A DNA stretch of 64,000 bases. Origin: Pantoea rwandensis. GTDB lineage: Bacteria; Pseudomonadota; Gammaproteobacteria; Enterobacterales; Enterobacteriaceae. Shown here in pieces: positions 17,615-32,321 of this stretch (positions are counted from its first letter, which is position 1; each line of letters starts with the position of its first letter). The stretch is from assembly GCF_002095475.1 (NCBI RefSeq), contig NZ_MLFR01000025.1, forward strand, positions 1 through 64,000. The letters run 5' to 3'. Position numbers and translations under genes: made by a program. The notes under the pieces are model-generated. The model was not told where the DNA came from and did no database searches. It was given only the letters and a program-made list of their open reading frames with translations.

Positions 17615-18271
17615 CTATTCATCCGCACTCTCCAGATAGGCCGCACTATGGAAGTCGATTTCCCATTGCAGTACGGTGCCGTAAAGCTCGGTAAGCCGCT
17701 GTTTCTCGTCAGTGCTGAGTGACAATGCGCACTGATCCAGTTCGGCTTTGAGCCACAACGCCTGTTGGTAGAACTCCTCTTCGGCGTGCATCTCTACCCA
17801 GCGGCGCACATCCGCATCGCTTTGAGGTTGCGCGCTGACTCGCTTGCACCAGTGGTAATACATCCACTCAGCGCCAAACATCAGGGTGATGATTTCGGCA
17901 TAGCTGCCCTGCTGCGCTACCCGCAGCATGCCGTCACGGAAGCGATTCACGCCCGGCAAATCATCGGGATAGTCGCTGGGGTTAATTGCACGCTGCGCCA
18001 GCACGGCTTCGAACCAGGCAATTTGGGTATCCACCAGGGCATTGAGCACCCCGATTAGCCAGCGTTGCTGACGTATATCCGGCGCTTTGCTCACGCCCAA
18101 AGCAAAAATGGCGATGGCGGTGGCCACAAAATTGCCTTCAAACACTAAATAGCGATTGAACACGCTGTCAGGAAGCTGGTCACGTTCAATGTCCAGCACA
18201 AAGCGATGCTGCTGCATCTCTTGCCAAACTTTTTGATGCTCGGCCAACAGCTGATCGGTAAAGCTGCTCAT
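17615..18271 (-). CDS. TenA/thiaminase II-family protein
   Basis: About 218 residues of all-helical TenA fold: AEHQKVWQEMQQHRFV at the N-terminus, then FGAEWMYYHWCKR and a terminal HAEEEFYQQALW segment. TenA enzymes hydrolyse aminopyrimidines in thiamin salvage, but in the central FGAEW stretch I see no cysteine where TenA_C enzymes have their nucleophile. This suggests the TenA_E-like subgroup, whose substrates are poorly known. It overlaps the BtpA-like gene (TGATG). In a sugar ABC cluster it may act on an amine- or base-bearing compound. Confidence 0.7.
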   Translation of the reverse strand: MSSFTDQLLAEHQKVWQEMQQHRFVLDIERDQLPDSVFNRYLVFEGNFVATAIAIFALGVSKAPDIRQQRWLIGVLNALVDTQIAWFEAVLAQRAINPSDYPDDLPGVNRFRDGMLRVAQQGSYAEIITLMFGAEWMYYHWCKRVSAQPQSDADVRRWVEMHAEEEFYQQALWLKAELDQCALSLSTDEKQRLTELYGTVLQWEIDFHSAAYLESADE

Positions 18272-19116
18272 CACGCCTCCTCCAGTGCAGCTTGCGCCAC
18301 CGACATAAAGTGCTTCACGCGCGCCAGCTCAACGTCGTTCCACCACACGCCATCCAGTTTCATGGTGCTGGCTACGATCACCCCTTGGGTGCGTCCTAAA
18401 ATCTGGCAAACATTGGCTGGGGTGATGCCTGAACCCACTAGCAGCGGCAATTCGGTAGCAGCACGAATCTCATCGATTTCACTCAAGGTGGCGCTGTCAC
18501 CGGTTCGTTGTCCGGTGGCAATCACAGCATCCGCTTCGAAGAAATCGACATCGCGCGTCAATTCCTGAATGGATCGGTCAGCTACAATCGCGTGACTGCC
18601 GTGTTTGACGTGGCTATCGGCAAATATGCGAATATGGTCAGCGCGCAGCTGATTGCGATAGCGCAACGCTTTCGCGGCCGCACCCTCAATAAATCCTTCA
18701 TTGGCGATATACGCATTGGCCCATTGGTTGACGCGCACGAAATCAGCACCACCTGCCAGCGCGGTGGCAATGGCTGGAATCGCGGCATTTGCCAGCACGT
18801 TAATCCCCAGCGGTGCGCCAAAGCGTTGACGGATCTTCTCAGTGATGACCGCCATAAAAGCCGCGGTTTCATGGCCGATGTCCTCGGGTTTAGCGAAAGG
18901 AATGTCGCCATGATTCTCTACAATCAAACCATGAACACCACCAGAGAGATAATTATCTGCATCGCGTAAAGCACGATCGATAATATCTAAAACTGATTTA
19001 CCTCGATATTTTGGCGACCCTGGAAATGCATCACAATGAATAACACCAATCACTGCTTTCTTACGTGAAAAAATATCTTGTATCGCGCTACTTTTTTCTG
19101 CTGATATAGAAGCCAT
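18271..19116 (-). CDS. BtpA/SgcQ-family protein
   Basis: About 281 residues of TIM-barrel BtpA/SgcQ type: VIGVIHCDAFPGSPKYRG at the N-terminus, GVHGLIVENHGDIPF, GADFVRVNQWANA, and LLVGSGITPANV near the C-terminus. BtpA was named for photosystem I biogenesis, but bacterial SgcQ homologues occur in sugar operons and are suspected nucleosidase- or aldolase-like enzymes. ATG at 19116 follows AAGG; the longer frame would run across the divergent kinase start. It is divergent from the kinase with only 27 bases between start codons. Confidence 0.75.
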   Translation of the reverse strand: MASISAEKSSAIQDIFSRKKAVIGVIHCDAFPGSPKYRGKSVLDIIDRALRDADNYLSGGVHGLIVENHGDIPFAKPEDIGHETAAFMAVITEKIRQRFGAPLGINVLANAAIPAIATALAGGADFVRVNQWANAYIANEGFIEGAAAKALRYRNQLRADHIRIFADSHVKHGSHAIVADRSIQELTRDVDFFEADAVIATGQRTGDSATLSEIDEIRAATELPLLVGSGITPANVCQILGRTQGVIVASTMKLDGVWWNDVELARVKHFMSVAQAALEEA

Positions 19117-19143
19117 CTCTTTCACCTTATTAACGAGAAAACC

Positions 19144-20010
19144 ATGCGTGTATATGTTGCAGGTAATATTGTTGTTGACGAAACTTGGTCCATTGATGAA
19201 CTGCCACAAAAAGGCGCCTCAATACATGGGCGAAAAATATCCCAAGATATTGGTGGAAAAGGCGCTAACCAGGCGATTATCCTTTCACGCTGCGGTATCG
19301 ACACCCATTTAATCGCTGCTACGGGCAATGATATTCATGGCCAGTGGATTCGCGCGCGCATGCAGAGTGAACATTTATTGCTACAGCCCGATGAGGCTTT
19401 ATCCGAACACAGTGACACCTCAATTATTTTCAATAGCCATGATGGTGACAACGCTATTATTACCACCCTCGCCGCAGCAGAAGCGTTGGCGCTGGAACGC
19501 ATCCTGGTTTATTTAGCGGATGCTGCACCTGGCGATATTCTGTTACAACAAGGTAATTTCTCCGTTGGAAAAACCCACGCGCTGTTTAGTTGGGCGAAAT
19601 CCCACGGCTTAATCACTGTTTTTAATCCCTCACCGGTTAATCCTGACTTTGCCGATTTATGGCCGCTGATTGATATTGCCGTGGTCAATCAACTTGAAGC
19701 CGAATTACTGCATCCCGCTGGCGTCAACACCTTAGTGATCACGCAAGGGGCTGCGGGGGCCGACATTTTCCGAGCTGACGACCACCTTTATTGTCCCGCT
19801 GCACCGGTACAAGCGGTAGACAGCACCGGCGCTGGCGACACCTTTTTGGCGGTATTACTGGCGTCTTCCCTGATACGGGGCGTCGAACCTGATGCACTTG
19901 CCCTGTACCATGCCAGTGCTGCGGCGGCCATCACCGTCAGTCGCACTGGCACCCTGAATGCCTTCCCCACGGCAGATGAGCTGGCGGCCATCCTCACTCA
20001 CCGCCCGTAA
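19144..20010 (+). CDS. PfkB/ribokinase-family carbohydrate kinase
   Basis: A 288-residue PfkB kinase. The N-terminal GNIVVDETWSIDELPQKG and GGKGANQAIILSRCG match the ribokinase substrate site, and DSTGAGDTFLAVLLAS holds the anion hole and catalytic Asp. It would phosphorylate a sugar, nucleoside or related alcohol with ATP. It is the only plus-strand gene between the BtpA-like gene and the binding-protein gene. Regulation by the LacI protein is likely but no clear operator was found at its start. Confidence 0.85.
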   Translation: MRVYVAGNIVVDETWSIDELPQKGASIHGRKISQDIGGKGANQAIILSRCGIDTHLIAATGNDIHGQWIRARMQSEHLLLQPDEALSEHSDTSIIFNSHDGDNAIITTLAAAEALALERILVYLADAAPGDILLQQGNFSVGKTHALFSWAKSHGLITVFNPSPVNPDFADLWPLIDIAVVNQLEAELLHPAGVNTLVITQGAAGADIFRADDHLYCPAAPVQAVDSTGAGDTFLAVLLASSLIRGVEPDALALYHASAAAAITVSRTGTLNAFPTADELAAILTHRP

Positions 20011-20017
20011 GGGCGGT
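20000..20017. terminator. hairpin terminator between kinase and binding-protein genes
   Basis: ACCGCCC-GTAA-GGGCGGT is followed by TTGATTATT. The loop includes the kinase stop codon. It serves convergent transcripts. Confidence 0.65.
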
Positions 20018-20021
20018 TTGA

Positions 20022-20972
20022 TTATTTAAACAGCGAACGGTAACTGTCGACGTTCACTTTTGTCACCACAGTCGCGGGAACCAAAATAGTCTTGCTGACC
20101 GTTTTGCCCTCATTAATGGCATTCAGTGCTTTTAGCGCCTCTTCCCCCATCTTTTTCGGGTCTTGCTGCAGCACCGCCGCGACATAACCGCCATCAATCC
20201 CACTGATGGCTTTCGCGGTCAAATCCCAACCGAAGACTTTGATATCTTTCTGACGCCCCTGGTTTTCCACCGCCGCGATAGCGCCCAGCAGTGCCGGCTC
20301 TCCCGTGGCATAAATTGCCGTGAGGTCTGGATTACCGGTGATCAGGTTTTCCGCCGCACTCATCGCGTTGTCCTGAATATTTTGCCCATCGACCACATCA
20401 GCAACGGTGATTTTGCTGTTGCTCTTAATGGTCTCTTCAAAGCCCTTCTGCCGCTGGTTCTGGATAGCTGAATTCAACGCACCGACAATACCGAGACGCG
20501 CTTTGCCGCCCATCTCTTTCGCGACATAATCAACAAAGTATTTGCCGAGGATTTTCCCTCCTTCCAGGTTATCTACCCCCACCTGTGAGGCTTGCGGTCC
20601 TGCCGGTAATACCGCATCAATGGCAATCACCGGAATTTTCGCAGCGGCAGCTTCTTTAATCGCCGGCATGATACCGTTAACATCAATGGCATCCACCAGA
20701 ATACCTTTCACACCCTGCTGAATATAATTTTCAATCGCATCATTCTGCGCCACAGGATTGTCATTGGCATTGTAGATCACCAACTCTTTGCCGCTGGCTT
20801 TCGCCGCATCCTGTGCGCCTTGGTTCATCAGATTAAAGAACAGTGCCTGCTGATTAATTTGCACCAATGCATAAGTGGGTGCGGCCTGAGCCATTGCAAA
20901 TAACGATCCTGCTGAGAGGAGTGTCGTTGCCAAAACCATTGAACGCAGTTTTCCGGTGAAAGATGACATCAT
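20022..20972 (-). CDS. sugar ABC transporter substrate-binding protein (RbsB-like)
   Basis: About 316 residues with a Sec signal peptide (through AMAQA) and a class B periplasmic-binding fold: YALVQINQQALFFNLMNQG at the N-terminus and GILVDAIDVNGIMPAIKEA before the hinge. This branch binds ribose-like pentoses, galactose, AI-2 or nucleoside-like ligands. GAGGAAC supports ATG at 20972 over the longer frame. It is separated from its ATPase and permease genes (22676, 23468) by the LacI gene and transcribed away from them. Confidence 0.87.
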   Translation of the reverse strand: MMSSFTGKLRSMVLATTLLSAGSLFAMAQAAPTYALVQINQQALFFNLMNQGAQDAAKASGKELVIYNANDNPVAQNDAIENYIQQGVKGILVDAIDVNGIMPAIKEAAAAKIPVIAIDAVLPAGPQASQVGVDNLEGGKILGKYFVDYVAKEMGGKARLGIVGALNSAIQNQRQKGFEETIKSNSKITVADVVDGQNIQDNAMSAAENLITGNPDLTAIYATGEPALLGAIAAVENQGRQKDIKVFGWDLTAKAISGIDGGYVAAVLQQDPKKMGEEALKALNAINEGKTVSKTILVPATVVTKVNVDSYRSLFK

Positions 20973-21109
20973 TGAGTTCCTCGTCGGGAATAAATAATAA
21001 TCAGCGCTTCCCAGCGCTATCACGCTGAGAGTTTATGTTGGCAGGCAAATATCGATTAAATAATGCAGAACACGCCATTCATGTCGTGTTTTTGATACCA
21101 CCGAATTCC

Positions 21110-21152
21110 ACTATTTCGGCATCCCTTCCGTTGGGAGTGCGGTTGAAATAGT
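21110..21152. other. long imperfect hairpin in the binding-protein/LacI intergenic region
   Basis: ACTATTTC and GAAATAGT form an outer 8-bp stem; inside, GCATCCC and GGGAGTGC can pair with one bulge around a TTCCGTT loop. A smaller GGGAA-GCTA-TTCCC hairpin follows at 21165. The 341-base gap 20973-21313 holds no coding frame. These dyads could be operators or structured leader RNA. Confidence 0.4.
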
Positions 21153-21187
21153 TCGAAGCGGGTTGGGAAGCTATTCCCGGTACTGCG

Positions 21188-21200
21188 GTAAACGGTTTAT
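21188..21200. promoter_or_regulatory. degenerate LacI-type operator
   Basis: GTAAACGGTTTAT looks like the GTAAACCGGTTTAC operator seen at 22412 and 22583 with one central base missing. It lies between the divergent binding-protein and LacI genes and could link them to the same repressor. A second dyad, ACAGCGC-N10-GCGCTGT, is at 21245-21268. Confidence 0.4.
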
Positions 21201-21313
21201 ACAATTCGCCTCATGGATTTCTTTGTCAAGTGTTTATTTATCGAACAGCGCAAAAGGGAAAGCGCTGTATCAGTTACGCTTAACTGTGTTACAGATAAAC
21301 CACCTGAGCAGAA

Positions 21314-22351
21314 ATGGCGAAATTCATGAGTACAAAACGCGTGTTGTTGTCTGATGTCGCGAAGCTGGCTGGTCTGTCGAAAGCCACGGTTTCACGTTAT
21401 ATGAATCACAGCATCGTGCTGCCTCAGGAGACTATTGACCGCATTGAAACCGCCATCCACACCCTCGACTATCGTGGCAACAGTCTCGCGCGGCGCTTAA
21501 GCAAAGGCGGCAGTGAAACTTTGGGTTTAGTGCTGCCTGACATCACCAACCCCTTCTTTGCAGAACTGGCCGATGCGGCCGAAGAGGCTGCCTCTGCGCG
21601 CGGCTACAGTCTGGTGTTGTGCATCACGCGGAACAATCCGGACAAAGAGGCGCAATTTATACGCTGGCTGGATACGCGCCAGGTGGATGGTTTGCTGTTC
21701 ACCACCAACCGCCCGGATAACGGCGTATTGCGGGCTGAAATCCAGCGTCAGCATCACGTGGTGTTGCTGGATGAAGATATCCCCGGTAGTCAGGTACCCA
21801 AGGTGTTTGCGGATAATGTGCAAGGTGGGCGCATCGCCACTGAGCAACTGATTGCCGCTGGCCACACGCGAATCGCGTTTATCGGCGGGCCGGAACAGCT
21901 GATGAGCGTGCGCGAACGCTTTCTCGGTTTTTGCACCGCAATGCAGCAAGCCGGTTTGGCGGTGCCGCCCGAGTGGGTGATGTACGGCAACTATGCTCGC
22001 GAATTTGGTCAGCAAGCGCTGAATCACCTGTTCAGTTGCGACCAACGCCCCACTGCGGTGTTCGCCGCCAGTGATTACCTGGTGTTGGGCTTGCTCGACG
22101 GTTTACGCGCCAACGGTTTACAGGCACCCGCCGCCCTCTCACTGGTTGGTTTCGATGACGCAAACTACACCGACCTCACGCAACCCCGAATCTCCACCAT
22201 CCGCCAGCCCGCAAGAGAACTCGGCCACACGGCGGTCAACATCATGCTACGCCTGCTCAACAACGAATCCGATATTCCCATGGAGACGCGCTTACCGGTG
22301 GAGTGGATTGGGCGTGATTCGATTGGATTTGTTAACAGCGTCCCAAAATGA
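21314..22351 (+). CDS. LacI-family transcriptional repressor
   Basis: A 345-residue LacI repressor. The N-terminal helix-turn-helix (LSDVAKLAGLSKATVSRYMN, about residues 11-30) and hinge region (NSLARRLSKG) are followed by a periplasmic-binding-like sugar domain starting GLVLPDITNPFFAELADAAE. It lies between the two parts of a split ABC import system. Two perfect palindromes of LacI type downstream, before the ATPase gene, are its probable operators. Start ATG 21314 or 21326 cannot be separated by ribosome-binding site. Confidence 0.9.
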   Translation: MAKFMSTKRVLLSDVAKLAGLSKATVSRYMNHSIVLPQETIDRIETAIHTLDYRGNSLARRLSKGGSETLGLVLPDITNPFFAELADAAEEAASARGYSLVLCITRNNPDKEAQFIRWLDTRQVDGLLFTTNRPDNGVLRAEIQRQHHVVLLDEDIPGSQVPKVFADNVQGGRIATEQLIAAGHTRIAFIGGPEQLMSVRERFLGFCTAMQQAGLAVPPEWVMYGNYAREFGQQALNHLFSCDQRPTAVFAASDYLVLGLLDGLRANGLQAPAALSLVGFDDANYTDLTQPRISTIRQPARELGHTAVNIMLRLLNNESDIPMETRLPVEWIGRDSIGFVNSVPK

Positions 22352-22411
22352 TGCAAAAGCGCACAATAATGGCGCAAAAAGTGAGCTGAATTTTTTAATC
22401 GCGTTATAGTC

Positions 22412-22427
22412 AGTAAACCGGTTTACT
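22412..22427. promoter_or_regulatory. LacI-family operator O1
   Basis: AGTAAACCGGTTTACT is a perfect 16-bp palindrome with a central CG, the hallmark of LacI-family operators. It lies in the 324-base gap between the LacI gene and the ATPase gene. Confidence 0.8.
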
Positions 22428-22582
22428 TGAAAATTGCCTAACAAGTGATGCTTTACAACAAGTTAACCGAAAGTGCAGTGCCTGCGATGCAGGCTGGCAT
22501 GGATGCTGCAATGTCGTACCTGGCGAGTAAATATCATTGTAGCGTTTGTCCTGTTGGTTTTGACAAAAGTCTTATCTGGTAG

Positions 22583-22596
22583 GTAAACCGGTTTAC
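22583..22596. promoter_or_regulatory. LacI-family operator O2
   Basis: GTAAACCGGTTTAC repeats the O1 core exactly, centred about 170 bases downstream of O1 and 86 bases before the ATPase start. A half-site, TTGTAAACCG, follows at 22601. Two operators at this spacing would allow repression by DNA looping. Confidence 0.8.
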
Positions 22597-22675
22597 TAGA
22601 TTGTAAACCGTGCTGGATGAGTCCTTTTTCCCAACAGGACAAACATTTCCCACAAGCGTTGATGGGAGTTGTCCA

Positions 22676-23458
22676 ATGCAGCAATTACAAGCTCTTCCTG
22701 CCCGGGTTGAAATGGTGAATATCACCAAAACCTACGGTTCGATTCGCTCCCTGCGCGGCGTCAATTTGCAGCTTGCGCCGGGAGAAGTGCTCGGTTTGGT
22801 AGGCGATAACGGTGCCGGCAAATCAACACTCACCAAAGTCCTTTCGGGCGCCGTGATCCCCACCAGCGGTACCATCCGTATTGACGGGGAACAGCAGCAT
22901 TTCAACAACCCGGCCGATTCACGTCGCTGCCATATCGAAATGGTCTATCAAGATTTGTCACTGTGCGACACCGTGGATGTGGCGGGTAACTTATTCATGG
23001 GCCGTGAGCCAATGAAAAGCGTGCTCGGTGTTCCTTTCCTTGACCAAGCCAAAATGCATGCTGAAGCCCGCGAGATGCTGAAAGGGTTGGGGATTTCCAT
23101 TCCCGACACCCGCTTATTAGTCCGCAACCTCTCAGGTGGACAACGCCAGGCGATAGCCATTGCACGCGCTGCAGCGTTCGAACCGAAAGTCCTGATCATG
23201 GATGAACCTACGGCGGCACTGGCAGTCGCCGAAGTGGAGGCGGTACTGGAATTGATTCGCCGTGTGTCGGCGCGCGGCGTCAGTGTGATTTTGATTACAC
23301 ACCGCCTGCAAGATCTCTTCCTGGTGTGCGACCGAATTATGGTGATGTATGAGGGCACCAACGTTGCCGATCGCCGAGTGGCCGATACCAGTCTCAGCGA
23401 CATTGTGAACCTGATCGTGGGTGAAAAATTTACCGCGCACTCAGCGGCTGCACATTGA
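22676..23458 (+). CDS. sugar ABC transporter ATP-binding protein (single-domain, RbsA/XylG-like)
   Basis: About 260 residues with one nucleotide-binding domain: Walker A GDNGAGKST, signature LSGGQRQ, Walker B VLIMDEPTAAL, and the switch His in ILITHR. RbsA itself has two such domains; this single-domain form is common in fructose/FrcA-type importers and would work as a dimer. ATG at 22676 follows GGGAG; the longer frame starts within the operator region. It would power import through the permease encoded next. Confidence 0.9.
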   Translation: MQQLQALPARVEMVNITKTYGSIRSLRGVNLQLAPGEVLGLVGDNGAGKSTLTKVLSGAVIPTSGTIRIDGEQQHFNNPADSRRCHIEMVYQDLSLCDTVDVAGNLFMGREPMKSVLGVPFLDQAKMHAEAREMLKGLGISIPDTRLLVRNLSGGQRQAIAIARAAAFEPKVLIMDEPTAALAVAEVEAVLELIRRVSARGVSVILITHRLQDLFLVCDRIMVMYEGTNVADRRVADTSLSDIVNLIVGEKFTAHSAAAH

Positions 23459-23467
23459 GGTAACAGG

Positions 23468-24478
23468 ATGAGCATCATGAATTTAGGCAGCTCCCGCATG
23501 ATCCAGCACTCACTCCCTCGCCGCCTGCTACATAACCATTCCGGCGTGGTGAGCATTGCACTGTTTTTCATCTTCTGCTGTGTGGTGTTTTCGCTGATCA
23601 CCAGTAACTTTCTCACCAGCACCAACTGGCTGAATATCATTCGCCAAAGTGCACCGCTACTGATTGTCGCCACCGCCATGACGCTGGTGATCACCACTGG
23701 CGGCATTGATTTATCGGTAGGGTCGACGCTGGCGTTGGTCGGAGCGCTTTCTGCCATTGCCCTGAACAACTGGGGTTTGCCGTGGCCGGTGGTATTAATT
23801 GGCGGGCTGCTGCTGGGGGGCTTAGTGGGGGCGATCAACGGCTTCTTTATTGCCTTCGAAGGGATACCCGCCTTTATCGTCACGCTGGCGACTCTCGCCG
23901 TGGTGCGGGGTATCGCACTGTTGGTGACCCAAGGTTATTCGATCCCGGTTCCCGCCGACAGCCTGTTCACCTTTATGGGTCGCGCTTGGGTGCTGGGTAT
24001 ACCAATGCCCGCGCTGATTGGCATTGTCTGTTTAATTGCCGGGCACATCCTGCTGAATCATATGCGTTTTGGCCGTTACGTGACCGCCATCGGGGCTAAC
24101 GCTGAAGGCGCGCGCCGCAGTGGCATCAATACCAAAGCGGTAACCATGAAGGTGTACATCATTAGCGGGATGGCGGCCGCACTGGCAGGGATGATCATCA
24201 CCGCACGTCTCGGCAGCGGCTCCTCTAACCAAGGCGAAGGCTTTGAACTGCAGGTGATTGCCGCAGTGGTATTGGGTAGCACCAGTTTGTTCGGCGGTTT
24301 TGGCACGGTCATCGGCACGCTGTTGGGTGCGCTTTCTATCGCGATTATCCAGAACGGACTGATCTTGTCGCATATCTCGCCGTTCTATACCCAGATTGCA
24401 ACAGGCACCATCATTCTTCTCGCCATCTGGCTCAACACTCGCATTCTCAACCCAACCCGCTCCGCCGCGAAAGGATAG
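23468..24478 (+). CDS. sugar ABC transporter permease (RbsC-like)
   Basis: A 336-residue inner-membrane permease with eight to ten hydrophobic segments. The TTGGIDLSVGSTLALVGAL motif and the EGFELQVIAAVVLGSTSLFGG loop are signatures of ribose/xylose-type (CUT2) permeases. It lies ten bases after the ATPase gene in the same operon. The partner binding protein is encoded at 20022. Confidence 0.9.
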   Translation: MSIMNLGSSRMIQHSLPRRLLHNHSGVVSIALFFIFCCVVFSLITSNFLTSTNWLNIIRQSAPLLIVATAMTLVITTGGIDLSVGSTLALVGALSAIALNNWGLPWPVVLIGGLLLGGLVGAINGFFIAFEGIPAFIVTLATLAVVRGIALLVTQGYSIPVPADSLFTFMGRAWVLGIPMPALIGIVCLIAGHILLNHMRFGRYVTAIGANAEGARRSGINTKAVTMKVYIISGMAAALAGMIITARLGSGSSNQGEGFELQVIAAVVLGSTSLFGGFGTVIGTLLGALSIAIIQNGLILSHISPFYTQIATGTIILLAIWLNTRILNPTRSAAKG

Positions 24479-24481
24479 CTA

Positions 24482-25561
24482 ATGAAAGGATCAATATTTC
24501 GCCACGCGGATCCGTTGCCCCTCGGGGTGAGCAGTGGTCACGTGATGACGGTGCTCGGTCCGCTGCCACTGGCAGAAATGGGTGTGACCTTGATGCATGA
24601 ACACATCCTGCTGGATGCGTCAGGAAAATGGGTGGCGCCCTGCTGTTGCAGCGAACGCCATGTGGCCGAGATGCCCGTCAAAATGGAAAACCTGGGTGAG
24701 TTGTCGCTCAACCCGCTGATGAGTCGTGATAACTGCCAGCTTTTTGATGTGGATACCGCCATCGAAGAATTGATGAAGTATCGCGCGCTGGGCGGAGAGA
24801 CAGTGGTCGATCCCACCAATATTGGCATTGGTCGCGACCCCAAAGGCTTGCAACGTATCGCACGTTTGACGGGCTTAAACATCGTGATGGGCACCGGATT
24901 GTATCTGGAGCCTTCACATCCTGAATGGGTAAAAAGCATCAGCGTTGAGCAACTCGCAGACAAACTGATTTATGACCTCGGTGGCGCAGAAGAAAAACCG
25001 GAGGTGATCGCGGGTTTGATTGGTGAAATCGGCATCTCCAGCCGTTTCACGCCAGACGAAGAGAAATCACTGCGCGCCGCTGGACGCGCCAGTGCAGCCA
25101 CCGGCGTGCCGATTCAGGTGCACTTGCCCGGTTGGGAACGACTCGGCCACAAAGTACTGGATATCCTGGAACAGGAAGGCGCGAACCTGCGGCATGTTGT
25201 GCTTTGCCACATGAACCCCAGTTTTGCTGACAAGCGCTATCAGCGCGAGCTGGCCGAACGCGGGGTGTTTCTGGAGTACGACATGATTGGCATGAGTTAT
25301 TACTACGCCGATGAGGCTGCGCAATCCCCTTCCGATGAGGAGAACGCGCGCGCCATTTGCGGATTGATTGAGGATGGCTACATTCAGCAGATTTTGATGT
25401 CGCAGGATGTGTTCCTCAAGACCATGCTGACGCGCTATGGCGGTCACGGTTATGGATACATCCTCAAGCATTTTGTGCCGCGTCTGAAACGCCATGGCGT
25501 CACCGGCGAACAACTGGAAACCTTAATGATTGCCAATCCGCAGCGGGTATTTGGCGGATAA
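24482..25561 (+). CDS. phosphotriesterase-family metal hydrolase
   Basis: A 359-residue amidohydrolase-fold protein of the phosphotriesterase homology group. The metal-binding HEHILLDASG start (HxH), HLPGWE, and VVLCHMNPS histidines and the late SQDVF aspartate are all present. Natural substrates in this group are usually lactones, esters or amides rather than organophosphates. It is three bases downstream of the permease, so it probably acts on the imported compound or an intermediate. Confidence 0.82.
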   Translation: MKGSIFRHADPLPLGVSSGHVMTVLGPLPLAEMGVTLMHEHILLDASGKWVAPCCCSERHVAEMPVKMENLGELSLNPLMSRDNCQLFDVDTAIEELMKYRALGGETVVDPTNIGIGRDPKGLQRIARLTGLNIVMGTGLYLEPSHPEWVKSISVEQLADKLIYDLGGAEEKPEVIAGLIGEIGISSRFTPDEEKSLRAAGRASAATGVPIQVHLPGWERLGHKVLDILEQEGANLRHVVLCHMNPSFADKRYQRELAERGVFLEYDMIGMSYYYADEAAQSPSDEENARAICGLIEDGYIQQILMSQDVFLKTMLTRYGGHGYGYILKHFVPRLKRHGVTGEQLETLMIANPQRVFGG

Positions 25562-25574
25562 ACGGAGAGATGTC

Positions 25575-26330
25575 ATGCAGAAAAACGTTTTGCTGGTCGG
25601 TGAATCCTGGACCAGCACCTCGACTCATGTAAAAGGCTTTGATCAGTTTGCGACTGCGACCTGGCACAGCGGTGCGGTGGATTTTATGGCGGCCTTAAAA
25701 CAGAGCGAATACGCCATCACGCACATGCCTGCCCATGCCGCGGCCACTGAATTCCCTTTGACGCTGGAAGAATTACAGCAGTGGGATGTGATTATCCTTT
25801 CTGATATTGGCGCCAACACCTTGCTGCTACACCCAGATACCTGGCTGAAAAGCCGACGCACGCCCAATCGTTTGGCGCTGATTCACGATTACGTGGCAGG
25901 CGGTGGTGCGTTGATGATGATTGGTGGTTATTACAGCTTCCAGGGCATCAATGGCGGCGCGCGCTACCGTAATACCTTGGTTGAAAAAGTCTTGCCGGTG
26001 CGCTGCCTGGCCTGGGACGATCGCATTGAAACCCCTGAGGGCAGCCATGTTGAAGTGACAACGTCACATGAAATCCTCAAGGGTATTCCCACTGACTGGC
26101 CTTGGTTGCTGGGCTATAACGAGGTGGAAATGCAGACCGAAGGTCAACTCCTCGCCACCATAGCCGGTACCGGACATCCATTACTGGCCGTTCGTGAATA
26201 CCAACGTGGTCGTTCACTTGCCTGGACCAGTGATATGTCGGCCCATTGGCTGCCTGAAGAATTTTCAAAATGGCCCGGCTATCGACAACTGTGGATTAAT
26301 TGCCTCGACTGGCTGACGGAGCCCCGCTGA
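25575..26330 (+). CDS. class I glutamine amidotransferase-like protein (GATase1-like)
   Basis: About 251 residues of flavodoxin-like GATase1-like type: NVLLVGESWTSTSTHVKGFD at the start, WDVIILSDIGANTLL, and GGGALMMIGGYYSFQG. No clear nucleophilic cysteine in a GxCxG elbow is visible, so glutaminase activity is doubtful. GGAGAG precedes the ATG at 25575, which overlaps the previous frame region only if a longer start were used. It is cotranscribed with the phosphotriesterase homologue and the M20 hydrolase; function unknown. Confidence 0.7.
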   Translation: MQKNVLLVGESWTSTSTHVKGFDQFATATWHSGAVDFMAALKQSEYAITHMPAHAAATEFPLTLEELQQWDVIILSDIGANTLLLHPDTWLKSRRTPNRLALIHDYVAGGGALMMIGGYYSFQGINGGARYRNTLVEKVLPVRCLAWDDRIETPEGSHVEVTTSHEILKGIPTDWPWLLGYNEVEMQTEGQLLATIAGTGHPLLAVREYQRGRSLAWTSDMSAHWLPEEFSKWPGYRQLWINCLDWLTEPR

Positions 26331-27445
26331 TGCAGCTCAAGTCCCTTGAATTAGCTCAGCGTTTGTTGGGTTTCGATACCATTAACCCACCGGGTAATGA
26401 AGCCGACTGCATGCACTATTTCGCCAACTGGCTCACTGAGCAGGGCTTTACTGTTACCCTCACCGCCTTTGGTGAGGGGCGCACCAACCTCGTGGCCCAA
26501 CTGCCAGGTCAACGCGTTGGCAAACCGCTGGCATTTACCGGCCATCTGGATACCGTTCCGCTTGGCAACCAGCCGTGGCGCTTCGATCCGTTTGGCGGCG
26601 ATATCGAAGGTGACCGCCTGTATGGCCGTGGTGCCAGTGACATGAAAGCGGCTGTGGCCGCGTTTGCGCTGGCCTGCGTGCAGCAAAAAGCCGCCATTGA
26701 GGCGGGACGCGGTGTGGTATTGATCATCACGGGGGGTGAAGAGACCGGTTGTGATGGCGCCAAAGCGCTGATTGACGCGGGCACTTTACCTGATATCGGC
26801 GCATTGATCGTGGGAGAGCCAACCGCAAACTATCCGGTGATCGGCCACAAAGGTGCACTGTGGTTGCGTTGTGAAACGCGGGGTAAAACGGCACATGGCG
26901 CCATGCCCGAACTGGGCATTAATGCCATTTATCTGGCGGCGGATGCCTTGGGCAAAATCCGCCATTTTTCTCCCGGTGCGCCTCATCCGCTGATGAAACA
27001 TCCCACGTTAAATGTCGGGCGTATCCAGGGCGGATTGAACATCAATTCGGTGCCAGACCGAACGGCATTCGATGTCGATATCCGCAGTGCGCCTAATCTA
27101 GACCATGCCACCATTCGGCAACGACTCGCTGACCTGTTAGGCGCAGAGGTCACGTTAACCACCTTAGTGGATTTGCCTGCAGTGTTGAGTTCTGAAGCGC
27201 ATCAGTGGATTCAATCCGTCTTTCAACACTGCCAAGCGCTGTTCGACCAGCCTCTTGAGGCCAAAGTGGTGCCCTACTTTACCGATGCCTCACTGCTTTT
27301 GCCCGCGCTTAGCCATCCACCTTGCGTGATTCTTGGTCCTGGCGAACCGGCCATGGCGCACCAAACGGATGAATATTGCCTGCTAAGTCGCCTGGCTGAA
27401 GCGGAGGTGTTGTATACGCAATGCATTGAGGACTGGATGCGCTAA
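26330..27445 (+). CDS. M20-family metallopeptidase/deacylase (ArgE/DapE-like)
   Basis: About 371 residues. The di-zinc site is visible: His in TGHLDTVPLG, Asp in GRGASDMKAAV, the catalytic Glu pair in TGGEETGCDGAK, and VGEPTAN. A lid/dimerisation domain (about 175-285) with KTAHGAMPELG interrupts the catalytic domain. Such enzymes cleave N-acyl amines, amides or small peptides. The start shares a base with the previous stop (TGATG at 26328-26332). Its presence in a sugar operon suggests an N-acylated or amide-bearing substrate. Confidence 0.83.
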   Translation: MQLKSLELAQRLLGFDTINPPGNEADCMHYFANWLTEQGFTVTLTAFGEGRTNLVAQLPGQRVGKPLAFTGHLDTVPLGNQPWRFDPFGGDIEGDRLYGRGASDMKAAVAAFALACVQQKAAIEAGRGVVLIITGGEETGCDGAKALIDAGTLPDIGALIVGEPTANYPVIGHKGALWLRCETRGKTAHGAMPELGINAIYLAADALGKIRHFSPGAPHPLMKHPTLNVGRIQGGLNINSVPDRTAFDVDIRSAPNLDHATIRQRLADLLGAEVTLTTLVDLPAVLSSEAHQWIQSVFQHCQALFDQPLEAKVVPYFTDASLLLPALSHPPCVILGPGEPAMAHQTDEYCLLSRLAEAEVLYTQCIEDWMR

Positions 27446-28429: not shown

Positions 28430-28585
28430 ACTTTAGGCGTTTTACTGCTCGCTGTCTATTTTTGCTTTTTTGCCTTCCAGCTAAAGAAAGAGTCCCGCAA
28501 ACAAAAGGGTTGACGATTGTTCACAAGATCCCGCGCTGACACACTTTCAGCCGACAAATTGGCTGATTCATTTCGGGAGAATATC

Positions 28586-30712
28586 TTGCAAAACAATAAT
28601 AAAAATCGGGCGCGCTGGAGCACGCCCCTGACCTGTCTTGCCCTGCTGGTTCAGGCGCATTGCGTGATGGCTGAAGAAACATTAACCGTCAACGCTAACG
28701 GCGAAAGCTCATCTGAGAAAGGCTATGTGGCGCAAACCAGCAGCACAGCCAGTCGCACCAATCAATCCATTTTGGCAACGCCACAATCCGTCTCGGTGAT
28801 TACGCGTGGCGAACTGAATGACCGTAATGTGCAGAGCACCACGCAAGCCCTGCAATATACGCCGGGGGTTTTTGCCTCCACGAGCGCCATTTCGTCACGC
28901 TTTGACTATTTCAGCATTCGCGGTTTTGATGCCACGTTGAATGGCACGCTGTTAGATGGACTGCGCTCAACCACGCGACAATCCTATGTGCGTTATGAAC
29001 CTTACGGTTTAGAGCAACTGGATGTCCTGCGCGGACCGAACGGCTTCCTGTATGGTGCCGGATCGCCAGGTGGCATTGTTAATGGGATTAGCAAGCGCCC
29101 TACACTCAATGCGCAGCATGAAGTCGCGCTTCAAACGGGCAGTCATGGTCGTATGCAAGGCCAGTTTGATACTTCAGGCCCTCTCGATGACGACAAAACC
29201 CTGCTCTATCGCGTGGTTGGCGTGGCGCGGGACAGCAACACGCAATTCAATAACGTACCTGATGACACACTCTATCTGGCCCCCTCTCTGACATGGCGCC
29301 CGGATACCGATACCACCCTAACGGTGCTCGCCTCGGTCAACCGCAACAAGTTTGGTCCACCTCGCCCATTCCTGCCGCTTCATGGCACTTTGCTCAGCAA
29401 TCCCAACGGGCCGGTCAACCGTAACAGTTATCTTGATGGCACCAATCTTGATAACCACATGAGCCAGACAAATTTGGGTTATGAACTGGACCATAAGTTT
29501 GCCGATCGTTGGACCTTCCACTCGGCCAGCCGCTACAGCGAAACAGACCTCTCAACACAGACGCTATCAGGGTCGGCGCTGGCTGCTGATATGCGCACGT
29601 TAAGCCGCGTGGCCTACGCATTTAGGATAAAAGGGAAAATCTTTGCCACCGATAACAACCTGAAAACACAATGGGAAGCCGGTCCGGTGCAGGGTTCGAG
29701 TGTGGCAGGATTATCGTTTCGCCACACCGGCGAGGATTACACGCTGGACTACGGTCGCGCCAGCAGCATTGATATTTATAACCCTACCGGAAATGGCCGT
29801 TTCTCTGCTCCCACGGCGTATACCAGCACACAACAGAATGCTAATGAAACTGGCGTCTATCTCTCAAACAGCCTGTCGCTGTTTCAGCATCTGAATCTGG
29901 ATCTTTCCGCGCGACAGGATTGGGCAACGGTCAACACTAAAAATCGACTGAGCGATAGTTATACCTCGCAGAATGACCAACGCTTCACCTGGCGTGCAGG
30001 GTTGAGCTGGATCACCGATAGCGGTGTGGCGCCTTATGTCAGCTATGCCACATCCTTTGCGCCTACGCTGAGCACCAACATTTACGGTGAAAATTATAAG
30101 CCCACCACCGGCAAGCAGTGGGAAGTGGGCTTGAAGTATCAGCCCGTTATGATGGATGCGCTATTCACGCTGGCCTGGTTTGATTTGCAGCAAAACAATG
30201 TCCTCACCACTGACCCCAATAATTCACTGAACAGTGTACAGACCGGGCAGATCACCTCTAAAGGCATTGAAGCATCTGCAACCGCTAACCTGACGGATCA
30301 ATGGAAATTAGTGGCCAGCTACAGCTGGAACGATTTGGAAACCACTAAGTCCAGCGTAGCGAGTGCACAGGGTAAAACACCTGTCGCCATGCCAGAGCAT
30401 ATGGCCTCATTGTGGAGTCACTATACCGTGCAGAGCGGGCCATTGGCTTCGTTGGGGCTCGGTGCCGGTATTCGCTACTCGGGTTCAACTTGGGCGGATA
30501 CCAACAACACGATAAAAGTCCCGGATTACACCCTGGTTGACGCCTCAATTCATTACGACCTCGGCCAACTCAGCCAGCGATTGCATGGGGTGAATGTGGC
30601 CCTTAATGCCAATAACCTGTTTAACAAACATTATTGGGTGAGCTGCTCAACCACCACCTGCAGCACCGGCTACGACCGTTCACTGCTCGCCACCCTTTCG
30701 TACCGTTGGTAA
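28586..30712 (+). CDS. TonB-dependent ferric-siderophore receptor
   Basis: About 708 residues: signal peptide, plug domain (TPQSVSVITRGELNDRN followed by YTPGVFAS and FSIRGFD), and a 22-strand barrel ending in aromatic YRW. The pattern is of the FhuA/FoxA/FcuA branch for hydroxamate siderophores. The best start is TTG at 28586, which follows GGGAG and puts the signal peptide close to the N-terminus. An upstream TTG at 28517 lacks these features. No siderophore synthesis genes are nearby, so it may take up xenosiderophores. Confidence 0.88.
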   Translation: MQNNNKNRARWSTPLTCLALLVQAHCVMAEETLTVNANGESSSEKGYVAQTSSTASRTNQSILATPQSVSVITRGELNDRNVQSTTQALQYTPGVFASTSAISSRFDYFSIRGFDATLNGTLLDGLRSTTRQSYVRYEPYGLEQLDVLRGPNGFLYGAGSPGGIVNGISKRPTLNAQHEVALQTGSHGRMQGQFDTSGPLDDDKTLLYRVVGVARDSNTQFNNVPDDTLYLAPSLTWRPDTDTTLTVLASVNRNKFGPPRPFLPLHGTLLSNPNGPVNRNSYLDGTNLDNHMSQTNLGYELDHKFADRWTFHSASRYSETDLSTQTLSGSALAADMRTLSRVAYAFRIKGKIFATDNNLKTQWEAGPVQGSSVAGLSFRHTGEDYTLDYGRASSIDIYNPTGNGRFSAPTAYTSTQQNANETGVYLSNSLSLFQHLNLDLSARQDWATVNTKNRLSDSYTSQNDQRFTWRAGLSWITDSGVAPYVSYATSFAPTLSTNIYGENYKPTTGKQWEVGLKYQPVMMDALFTLAWFDLQQNNVLTTDPNNSLNSVQTGQITSKGIEASATANLTDQWKLVASYSWNDLETTKSSVASAQGKTPVAMPEHMASLWSHYTVQSGPLASLGLGAGIRYSGSTWADTNNTIKVPDYTLVDASIHYDLGQLSQRLHGVNVALNANNLFNKHYWVSCSTTTCSTGYDRSLLATLSYRW

Positions 30713-30728
30713 GTGAAGGAAAACATTG

Positions 30729-31814
30729 ATGAAAAATTATCTTCTGCTCACGTTGTTGTGTTTGATGTTCGGTATTTCCTCAGCCTCGGCCTCCATAACA
30801 GTGACAGATATGCTGCAGCGTAAAGTCACCTTGCCCGGCCCAGTGAAACGCATCGTATTAGGCGAAAGCCGCCACATCATTACGCTGGCGTTATTGGAAA
30901 AAGACCCGTTCCACAATTTAGTAGGCTGGGGAGATGACCTTCAGCGCTACTCACCCGCCACTTGGGATGCTATCGAAAAGCAGTATCCAGCGGCGCGCAA
31001 TGTTCCGGTGCTGGGCACCATGAATAGCGGTACTTTTTCACTGGAAGCGACCATCGCTGCAAAGCCTGATATCGTTATTTTTACGCTCTATGGACCCATT
31101 CCGCCGGGACTGGAAGCGCTGGATGCGGCGCACATCCCTTATGTGTTTGTGGATTTTTTCCGTAAACCCTTGGTGAATACTGTACCCAGCCTGAAACTGC
31201 TCGGCTCGGTGCTGGGCGAGAATACACAGGCTGATAAGGTGATTACATTCTGGCAACAGCACATGGACGAGGTAAAAAAACGGCTCGCCACCGTAAACAC
31301 ACGTCCTTCAGTGTTCTTTCATCTCAATCCCGGCAAAGGTGACTGCTGCTTCACCTCAGGTCCCGGCAATATGAGTGATTTTATCGCCGCGGCGGGTGGG
31401 CATAATATCGGCACCGATCTGTTGAGTGCGCCGATTGGCAAGCTCAACCCGGAATATATTATGTCTCGTAACCCTGATTTTTATTTAATGGGCGGGGGTT
31501 CTGCAGTGAGTCGTGAAGGTTTGCAAATTGGCACTGGCGCGACAGCACAACAAGTCGCTCAAAGCAGCAGGCAGTTGCTTCACACGCCAGAAATCGCCAA
31601 TTTACCCGCCGTGAAAGCTGGGCATGTAGGGGGCGTTTGGCTGTTCTTTTTTGATAGCCCACTCTATTTCATCGGTGTCGAAGCCATGGCGAAAATGTTC
31701 CATCCAGCCCTGTTCAGCGATATTGACCCCGATGCCACACTGCGCACGGTAACGCAAAGCTGGCTTTCGGTGCCGCTCCAGGGCACCTTCTGGACAACCT
31801 TGCCACAGCAGTAA
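30729..31814 (+). CDS. periplasmic iron-siderophore binding protein (FecB/BtuF-like)
   Basis: A 361-residue protein with a Sec signal peptide (to SASA) and a class III binding-protein fold: GPVKRIVLGESRHIITLALL, GTMNSGTFSLEATIAAKPDIVIF, and a long central helix. It lies 17 bases after the receptor gene and is probably cotranscribed. No ABC permease or ATPase for the siderophore is encoded beside it, so it must share an inner-membrane importer encoded elsewhere. Confidence 0.82.
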   Translation: MKNYLLLTLLCLMFGISSASASITVTDMLQRKVTLPGPVKRIVLGESRHIITLALLEKDPFHNLVGWGDDLQRYSPATWDAIEKQYPAARNVPVLGTMNSGTFSLEATIAAKPDIVIFTLYGPIPPGLEALDAAHIPYVFVDFFRKPLVNTVPSLKLLGSVLGENTQADKVITFWQQHMDEVKKRLATVNTRPSVFFHLNPGKGDCCFTSGPGNMSDFIAAAGGHNIGTDLLSAPIGKLNPEYIMSRNPDFYLMGGGSAVSREGLQIGTGATAQQVAQSSRQLLHTPEIANLPAVKAGHVGGVWLFFFDSPLYFIGVEAMAKMFHPALFSDIDPDATLRTVTQSWLSVPLQGTFWTTLPQQ

Positions 31815-31821
31815 ACACCAT

Positions 31822-31846
31822 CGACCACCGTTCTTCGGTGGTCGTT
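31822..31846 (+). terminator. hairpin after the siderophore-binding protein gene
   Basis: CGACCACCG-TTCTT-CGGTGGTCG is a perfect 9-bp stem between convergent genes. The trailing T tract is short. Confidence 0.7.
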
Positions 31847-31850
31847 CCCC

Positions 31851-32321
31851 TTACAGAGTTTTAGACACCCGAGCCAAATAGCAGCCGAATTGCGCGCTAT
31901 GAGCATGAATATAAGCGGTTTCCGGCCGCTGTAGCAGTGCTAAAACCGTTTGTTCCACTTCATAACCTGTCGCCAATTCTGCCGCAATAATGCAGTGCTC
32001 AAGATTAAACGCACGCAGCGAGAGTTGACGCTTGGCGAGATACTCCGGGATCTCGTCATTGAAAACACCTGAGTGAGTACAGCCCTCATGAATGAAGATG
32101 GCGTGTTGCCCGTGGTAAGGCGATTGCGCAGGTTGGTAGGTGTGATTAAGCAAGATAGCATTCTCGCCCGGGGGGACATCTTTCAAACCAATACGATCAG
32201 GCAAAGCTGAGTGAATGTCAGCAGTGACTCGTCGTGCATTGTGCCGTGCCAGATAATCACTATCCTGGCCATACAAATGGGCGAATTCGCTGCTGTTCAA
32301 ACCACTGATAACATAATGCAT
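31851..32321 (-). CDS. DUF1203-family protein
   Basis: A 156-residue protein preceded by AGGAGG. The segments CRHARRVTAD-like NARRVTADIHSALPDRIG, PPGENAILLNHTYQP and HAIFIHEGC match the DUF1203 family, which has no known function. No signal peptide or membrane segment is seen. It is a single gene between convergent and divergent neighbours. Confidence 0.75.
   Translation of the reverse strand: MHYVISGLNSSEFAHLYGQDSDYLARHNARRVTADIHSALPDRIGLKDVPPGENAILLNHTYQPAQSPYHGQHAIFIHEGCTHSGVFNDEIPEYLAKRQLSLRAFNLEHCIIAAELATGYEVEQTVLALLQRPETAYIHAHSAQFGCYLARVSKTL

Follow-up and report, generated by a model that had tools for sequence, protein, structure and literature searches.

Which compound is taken up and broken down by a bacterium that keeps a ribose-type ABC importer, a LacI-family regulator and a sugar kinase together with an unusual set of hydrolases? 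Such a ten-gene cluster lies at 17615–27445 of the stretch of Pantoea rwandensis DNA analysed here, which is 64,000 nucleotides long (hereafter, the window) and belongs to a genome of 5.78 Mb. All ten open reading frames (ORFs) are present, and each scores well over the Pfam cut-off of the family that the initial annotation had given it from the sequence. The cluster is a conserved unit across Enterobacterales, Pseudomonas, Paraburkholderia and Alphaproteobacteria, in which the importer and hydrolase genes occur together, and it consists of two modules. Module A comprises the importer, a phosphotriesterase-like (PTE) hydrolase, a GATase1-like protein and an M20 or carbamoylase-type hydrolase. 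Module B comprises a ribokinase-like kinase and a BtpA-family protein, often with a TenA-like protein. On the basis of the sequence comparisons described below, we see roughly an even chance that, under the control of LacI, the cluster serves to import and catabolise a sugar conjugate whose aglycone is of the amide, ureide or ester type. The sugar part is most likely a pentose, and the conjugate would be nucleoside-like or acyl-glycosylamine-like.

Conservation of the cluster

Loci were gathered with the PTE alignment alone, and are the best 80 of 526 PTE relatives. Genes were counted in the 65 loci that are 19.9 kb or longer, using hidden Markov models (HMMs) made from the window copy and as many as four others. 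The 15 shorter loci (4 Enterobacterales, 1 Pseudomonas, 1 Paraburkholderia and 9 Alphaproteobacteria) were left out, and PTE is universal in the counted loci by construction of the query. The Enterobacterales group was made by hand, and takes in one locus titled Martelella alba (L061).

All 39 Enterobacterales loci contain genes for the binding protein, LacI, ATPase, permease and M20 protein, with BtpA and PfkB in 38 each, TenA in 35 and the GATase-like gene in 33. The five Pseudomonas loci all have the binding protein, LacI, ATPase, permease, GATase-like and M20 genes, and none has BtpA, PfkB or TenA. The single Paraburkholderia locus has every gene but M20 and carbamoylase. In the Alphaproteobacteria (n = 20) the binding protein, ATPase, permease and GATase-like genes are always present, and BtpA and PfkB are found in 19; there is a carbamoylase-type hydrolase in 7, M20 in 1, LacI in 1 and TenA in none. 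The initial annotation took the genes to belong together, and this comparison of gene neighbourhoods bears it out, since the linkage is conserved.

The gene set is complete in Pantoea dispersa, and the named record that best matches the window PTE, among the matches listed, is Candidatus Pantoea formicae (99%). In Rhizobium leguminosarum, Paracoccus and Roseivivax the cluster is plasmid-borne, with genes for LacI, the importer, PTE, the GATase-like protein, the kinase, BtpA and TenA in other orders and without M20. The plasmids of Shinella, Aureimonas and Rhizobium tumorigenes combine the importer, PTE, GATase-like, kinase and BtpA genes with a carbamoylase-type hydrolase, and have no TenA. 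The full set is also found in Klebsiella pneumoniae CP125156 (L020), where IS1 at the kinase and a GATase-like gene split in two pieces make the cluster look partly broken.

Two other copies look broken: the GATase-like gene matches in two pieces in one (G011:C11, L132), as does the LacI gene in the other (L043). A partial cluster is carried by the conjugative IncL/M plasmid pEBSI041-2 of K. pneumoniae (L019), on which the permease, PTE, GATase-like and M20 genes lie between IS26 copies, near blaSHV-12.

There are counter-examples to the linkage. On a Raoultella plasmid (L021) the GATase1-like gene is found with a different type of ABC importer, LacI, a nitrilase and M24, and PTE, BtpA and kinase gave no match there. 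Two remote PTE relatives (L107 and L108) lie outside any such cluster.

The cluster is a patchy accessory trait. Among 148 sampled genomes of the window's order, PTE is found in 2, its own genome included, and a close BtpA is confined to these two; the GATase-like gene is found in 16 of 60 relatives, all within the genus. A megablast search of 20,395 E. coli records with the Klebsiella michiganensis copy (L039:8100-13000), by which near-identical DNA only is detectable, gave no match. Clustering of the flanking genes produced no extra family in more than 12 loci, the commonest looking like overlapping false ORFs or chromosomal neighbours. The genes themselves are under purifying selection. The ratio of nonsynonymous to synonymous substitution rates is 0.016–0.086 in 17 of 18 comparisons of window genes with two relatives, the remaining one being not computable; synonymous sites are near saturation in these comparisons, and for the kinase and the GATase-like gene P. 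dispersa was the only relative used.

Two modules

A second query, BtpA, was run against 398 genomes across the phylum. Seventeen matched, 11 of them with a close BtpA (E <=1e-90). At least three of the matching genomes (G340, G023 and G518) likely overlap records of the PTE search (L103, L028 and L043), so that the query is independent and the genomes partly so. A PfkB gene lies within 2 kb of the close BtpA in 11 of 11 genomes (by HMM, or by Pfam for L138 and L139), and a PTE gene lies inside the 20 kb examined around it in 8 of the 11, the window itself included. The other three have no PTE in range: L137 contains PfkB, TenA, an importer and LacI; in L138 an importer, PfkB and an amidase adjoin a further ribose-type importer, M20, a GATase1-like gene and LacI; and in L139 BtpA is accompanied by a CUT1 importer, PfkB and an amidohydrolase (Amidohydro_2). 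In Acidisoma, BtpA adjoins two importers, and the stretch examined has no annotated kinase. The seven remote BtpA loci (L140–L146, of which L144 spans 14.3 kb and L145 5.7 kb) gave no PTE, GATase-like or TenA match; there were weak PfkB matches in three of them and importer matches in L140.

BtpA is absent elsewhere in the genome from all eight genomes whose locus does not contain it, namely six Pseudomonas, Erwinia mallotivora and Oryzibacter. This null result is credible, because the same alignment matches the 17 genomes noted above. Module A can therefore stand alone, while the kinase and BtpA turn up again with other importers and other C–N hydrolases.

Further proteins accompany module B in some genomes. 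Proteins of about 240 and 100 residues follow directly after BtpA in three alphaproteobacterial clusters (L160:7876-8950, L157:9822-10840 and L155:9834-10127), with only the short one in L155; they have no Pfam match. A second ABC importer, resembling those for autoinducer-2 (AI-2), stands beside TenA at the left end of six loci (L024–L029), and is not found at the corresponding position of the window. In the annotated P. dispersa it is accompanied by an ArgE/DapE deacylase, and the same type of cassette recurs beside BtpA in Acidisoma (L157:13657-18647).

Gene organisation and regulation

From left to right, the TenA-like and BtpA genes are on the minus strand, PfkB on the plus strand, the binding protein on the minus strand, and LacI, ATPase, permease, PTE-like, GATase1-like and M20 genes on the plus strand. 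The importer is split around lacI, as the initial annotation described, with the binding protein (20022–20972, minus strand; PF13407, Peripla_BP_4, 181.2 bits) on the left. On the right, both on the plus strand, are the single-domain ATPase of about 249 residues (22712–23458; PF00005, 119.4 bits) and the permease (23468–24478; PF02653, BPD_transp_2, 136.2 bits). Probable gene starts at 18271, 19116, 20972, 22712, 25575 and 26327 or 26330 were set from the annotated P. dispersa copy. The btpA and pfkB genes are divergent and 27 bp apart (19116–19144), so that one promoter or both probably fall within the neighbouring gene.

The regulator (21314–22351, plus strand) matches PF00532 (Peripla_BP_1, 131.2 bits) and PF00356 (48.4 bits). 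It is followed by the two perfect operators recognised in the initial annotation, strandless 14-bp palindromes of sequence GTAAACCGGTTTAC at 22413–22426 and 22583–22596, spaced 170 bp. The motif is absent from 100 dinucleotide shuffles of the window, even at one mismatch. In the whole genome this pair is the only exact occurrence, and there is a single one-mismatch site, on contig C4.

At least one exact operator is present in 42 of 43 Enterobacterales loci, and two in 32; the sequence of the one locus without it (L062) begins within the permease gene. Each of the six Pseudomonas loci has a single copy, and both Paraburkholderia loci carry GTAAAGCGCTTTAC twice. No exact operator was found in the 29 alphaproteobacterial loci. 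In each of the two that have LacI by HMM score (L078 and L082) there is a pair of overlapping two-mismatch sites, and L099 has a single two-mismatch site, distant from the cluster. Near-matches are found on the LacI-bearing plasmids of R. leguminosarum (L105) and Paracoccus (L106), and L109, without LacI, still has one two-mismatch site. Across these groups, then, the operator largely tracks the lacI gene, and where that gene is present it keeps its position.

The exact operators sit solely before module A genes. A promoter-like region upstream of the binding-protein gene (21187–21231) combines a minus-strand TTGACA with an operator half-site, GGTAAAC; in 16 aligned upstream regions, counted by eye, GGTAAAC is found in 14 and TGTCAAG in 15. 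We suggest that LacI would repress the importer/hydrolase operon through the two operators, probably by looping of the 170 bp between them, and that it may also occupy the half-site in front of the binding-protein gene. It would be released by the substrate or by a product.

To the right of the cluster, at 28517–32000 of the window, translations of the ORFs read as a TonB-dependent receptor, a binding-protein-like protein and an AraC-like regulator, which suggests a separate siderophore-type uptake locus. The same was noted around 16247 in L024.

The binding protein, kinase and BtpA

Among solved structures, the binding protein matches chain 5hsg (E 2.4e-164). Against the RbsB model PRK10653 the protein scores 126.6 bits, below the cut-off of 337. 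It was compared with E. coli RbsB at 14 positions, which we take to be those that contact the ligand. F15, F16, D89, R141, D215 and Q235 are kept in all of five sequences, whereas N13A, R90A, S103V, I132A, F164G, N190G and F214W are changed in all five, and N64 is variable. The changes R90A, F164G, N190G and I132A suggest a larger pocket, one that is sugar-like but roomier, as might suit a sugar with a large substituent.

The kinase (19144–20010, plus strand; PF00294, 129.2 bits) keeps the equivalents of RbsK D16, GGKGxNQ and D255, with E143 replaced by N in 5/5 sequences, and scores 172.9 bits against the ribokinase model TIGR02152, below its cut-off of 299.65. The ribose-type binding protein and the ribokinase-like kinase together back the sugar moiety proposed in the initial annotation. 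The cluster shares with E. coli rbs a binding protein and a permease of ribose type, a LacI-family regulator and a ribokinase-like kinase. It differs from rbs in having a single-domain ATPase, added hydrolases, BtpA and TenA, as well as in the four pocket residues just listed.

The BtpA/SgcQ-family protein (18271–19116, minus strand; PF03437, 225.5 bits) is the sole BtpA match in the window's genome. It passes the BtpA/SgcQ model TIGR00259 (209.9 bits, cut-off 153.4) and falls below the photosystem I BtpA model NF045918 (187.9 bits, cut-off 400). AlphaFold2 predicts a TIM barrel (pLDDT 80.9, pTM 0.86). In the 50 rows listed of the structural comparison its matches to HisF, MJ1099, HPS and KDPGal aldolase are of much the same strength (Z 19.2–20.5), and it also resembles the RPE and ThiE barrels. 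The HisF, MJ1099, HPS, aldolase and ThiE barrels differ by no more than about 1 Z, so that the fold does not single out any one function. The protein carries a GSGIT/GSGVT motif, presumably for phosphate binding. A barrel of phosphate-binding type would probably act after the kinase. In E. coli, the sgc cluster similarly has a BtpA-family gene (sgcQ) beside sugar transport genes, but there the transporter is a phosphotransferase system rather than an ABC importer, and the HVKHGSHAIVADR segment of the ten-gene cluster's BtpA has no counterpart in SgcQ.

The hydrolases and the TenA-like and GATase-like proteins

The PTE-like protein (24482–25561, plus strand) passes PF02126 with 225.5 bits, against a gathering score of 22.4. 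Residues H39, H41, E182, H214, H243 and D309 are invariant in five of five sequences, and they align with chain 9efa; we take these to be the metal ligands, an assignment that is in part assumed. Chain 3k2g, which we take to be Rsp3690, matches the protein at E 4.7e-120, and the Pmi1525 structures 3rhg and 4qsf do so at 1.9e-62. Rsp3690 of Rhodobacter sphaeroides and Pmi1525 of Proteus mirabilis, both PF02126 proteins, have metal-stimulated esterase activity according to PMC5341072; they are known as esterases, and we found no pathway for them. The phosphotriesterase-related protein PTER (chain 9efa) aligns with residues 18–355 of the window PTE, with the metal ligands conserved, and is an N-acetyltaurine hydrolase according to PMC11374699. 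Its proposed N-acetyltaurine contacts in mouse, R204, R233 and H300 (PMC11374699), correspond to G217, P246 and F311 of the window PTE when carried over by hand through 9efa. On these three changes N-acetyltaurine hydrolysis by the PTE-like protein, considered because of its kinship with PTER, was rejected, and taurine amides are unlikely.

The M20 protein (26327 or 26330 to 27445, plus strand; PF01546, 106.7 bits) appears to be an ArgE/DapE-like amidohydrolase or deacylase, scoring 213.5 bits against the ArgE/DapE model TIGR01910, slightly under the cut-off of 217.6.

The TenA-like protein (17615–18271, minus strand; PF03070, TENA_THI-4, 71.7 bits) does not reach the cut-off of the NCBIfam salvage_TenA (thiaminase II) model (62.7 bits, cut-off 130). 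All 13 aligned sequences have alanine at the active-site cysteine position, where H. pylori TenA (2rd3) has a cysteine that we take to be catalytic. The equivalent of the aspartate is glutamate, and E136 aligns with a glutamate of the P. furiosus TenA homologue 1rtw.

The GATase1-like protein (25575–26330, plus strand; PF07090, 367.8 bits) has no cysteine in its GGYFSFQG-type segment, presumably the nucleophile elbow, in any of 10 sequences. C144, elsewhere in the protein, is nearly invariant in the same alignment. The initial annotation counted six enzyme genes. Their families all match, but the TenA-like and GATase1-like proteins are without the textbook catalytic residue, and both are therefore putative enzymes.

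Proposed function

The following scheme is a proposal as to reaction order, substrate class and the parts played by the GATase-like, TenA-like and BtpA proteins. The importer would bring the conjugate into the cell. The PTE-like hydrolase, and then the M20 protein (or the carbamoylase in some Alphaproteobacteria), would open or trim the aglycone as metal-dependent C–N or C–O hydrolases, with the GATase1-like protein in an assisting role beside them. The kinase of module B would phosphorylate the sugar, after which BtpA would isomerise or cleave the phospho-sugar. The TenA-like protein would probably hydrolyse a C–N bond of the leftover fragment.

The nature of the aglycone is suggested by the neighbours, since the carbamoylase, AllE and amidase genes point to amide or ureide chemistry. 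The Shinella hydrolase passes TIGR01879 (405.5 bits, cut-off 204). Sagittula carries PfkB, BtpA, two small proteins, BtpA and TenA in one run, close to AllE (ureidoglycine aminohydrolase; TIGR03214, 303 against a cut-off of 200) and a carbamoylase-family protein (TIGR01879, 349.1 bits; under the allantoate-specific cut-offs). The amide-linked part of the substrate in the initial annotation, and likewise a ureide- or ester-type aglycone, sit well with these recurring hydrolases. There is a likeness to allantoin/ureide and hydantoin catabolism, in the carbamoylase of some alphaproteobacterial forms and in AllE near the Sagittula run, but the cluster in the window contains no AllE, and its M20 protein is not of the carbamoylase type. 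We know of no kinase, BtpA or sugar importer in the allantoin/ureide and hydantoin pathways (AllE, AllC, hydantoinase/carbamoylase).

Several observations weigh against a single pathway for a sugar conjugate. Since the loci are the best of a longer list of PTE relatives, close copies are over-represented among them, and within the window's order the cluster is rare. TenA is missing from 4 of 39 Enterobacterales loci (L045, L048, L049 and L051) and the GATase-like gene from 6 of 39, so that both are dispensable. TenA is also missing from all 29 alphaproteobacterial loci of the PTE search, 9 of which are shorter than 19.9 kb, although it is present all the same on the R. leguminosarum, Paracoccus, Roseivivax and Sagittula plasmids. 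The carbamoylase is found in just 7 of the 20 counted alphaproteobacterial loci. The loci of Pseudomonas, Erwinia mallotivora (L045) and Oryzibacter (L100) lack BtpA, PfkB and TenA, which implies that the sugar may not need module B, or that the modules serve different substrates. The pocket arguments use sequence alignments with ligand positions taken from the literature, and the cluster as a whole is known here from genes, sequence comparison and one predicted fold.

Alternative explanations

A sugar or sugar-acid lactone pathway is unlikely, but deserves to be weighed first. The PTE-like protein would open the lactone, the kinase would phosphorylate the product and BtpA would be an aldolase or epimerase, leaving side products to the M20, TenA-like and GATase-like proteins. 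The ribose-type importer, LacI and kinase would all suit this, as would the barrels that the BtpA model resembles, which include KDPGal aldolase, RPE and HPS besides HisF. There are sugar-lactone hydrolases among PTE relatives, and the phospho-furanose lactonase model does match the window protein, but its score of 83.2 bits is far under the cut-off of 630. Moreover, M20 is present in every counted Enterobacterales and Pseudomonas locus (39/39 and 5/5), and carbamoylase, amidase and amidohydrolase genes recur, so that C–N hydrolysis looks central.

A further, rather improbable reading is the scavenging of ring-opened or oxidised nucleosides, such as ribosylated ureides, hydantoins and formamido-pyrimidines, from damaged nucleic acids. 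PTE, M20 and carbamoylase would dismantle the remnant of the base and the TenA-like protein would take off an amino group, while the kinase would make the 5-phosphate and BtpA, as a barrel enzyme of a new kind, would break or rearrange the N-glycosidic bond of the phosphoriboside. If this is true, the BtpA family would gain an enzymatic function, one that we did not find described in open-licence papers.

It is similarly improbable that two unrelated pathways share one regulator, with module A handling an acylated or amide nutrient and module B a separate sugar. Module A does occur alone in Pseudomonas and Erwinia mallotivora, in genomes with no BtpA elsewhere, module B is found with other importers, and the exact operators stand only in front of module A. 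On the other hand, a single sugar-type importer serves both modules, and the two occur together in Gamma-, Beta- and Alphaproteobacteria, where four or more gene orders are found.

The salvage of a thiamin breakdown product, suggested in the initial annotation, now appears very doubtful. The TenA and M20 genes resemble the formylaminopyrimidine salvage pair, in which M20 deformylates and TenA deaminates the pyrimidine. The E136 alignment with 1rtw fits this. So does the genomic context, in that the only other PF03070 match sits in a pyrroloquinoline quinone (PQQ)-type cluster, being presumably PqqC, and no alternative TenA for salvage is available. Against it, the TenA-like protein has alanine for the nucleophile and glutamate for the aspartate, and is well below the thiaminase II cut-off. 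A scan of five sources, the window among them, gave no Rfam match at the gathering threshold, not even to the thiamin pyrophosphate (TPP) riboswitch, although there are five TPP riboswitches elsewhere in the genome. The M20 protein is nearest to the ArgE/DapE models, the importer is ribose-type, and the core persists without TenA in Pseudomonas and in the 29 alphaproteobacterial loci. On these grounds thiamin salvage was rejected as the principal explanation.

PTE-family lactonases that quench acyl-homoserine lactones are known. That the PTE-like protein serves here to detoxify lactones or to quench quorum signals, the other genes being accessory, is scarcely credible, as a sugar permease lies beside PTE in all counted loci (39/39, 5/5, 1/1 and 20/20) and an importer is superfluous for detoxification.

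Significance

The sugar-conjugate proposal thus keeps part of the interpretation in the initial annotation, and adds to it the two-module structure and the GATase-like protein without a nucleophile. A LacI-type sugar catabolic regulon is a known kind of system, and the cluster is best filed as one, with a set of enzymes that, in agreement with the initial annotation, was not found described as a pathway in open-licence papers. The gene set probably serves plant-associated bacteria in the uptake and breakdown of a sugar-linked compound, and it looks like a genuine metabolic pathway, as yet undescribed. It is delimited, conserved and regulated, and its carriers include plant-associated and soil bacteria. 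Close relatives of two of its parts have already been crystallised (5hsg for the binding protein and 3k2g for the PTE-like protein). It joins several families that lack a clear function, namely BtpA/SgcQ, the PF07090 GATase1-like proteins, TenA without its cysteine and the 3k2g-type hydrolases, and the pairing of kinase and BtpA makes a biochemical role of BtpA outside photosynthesis directly testable.

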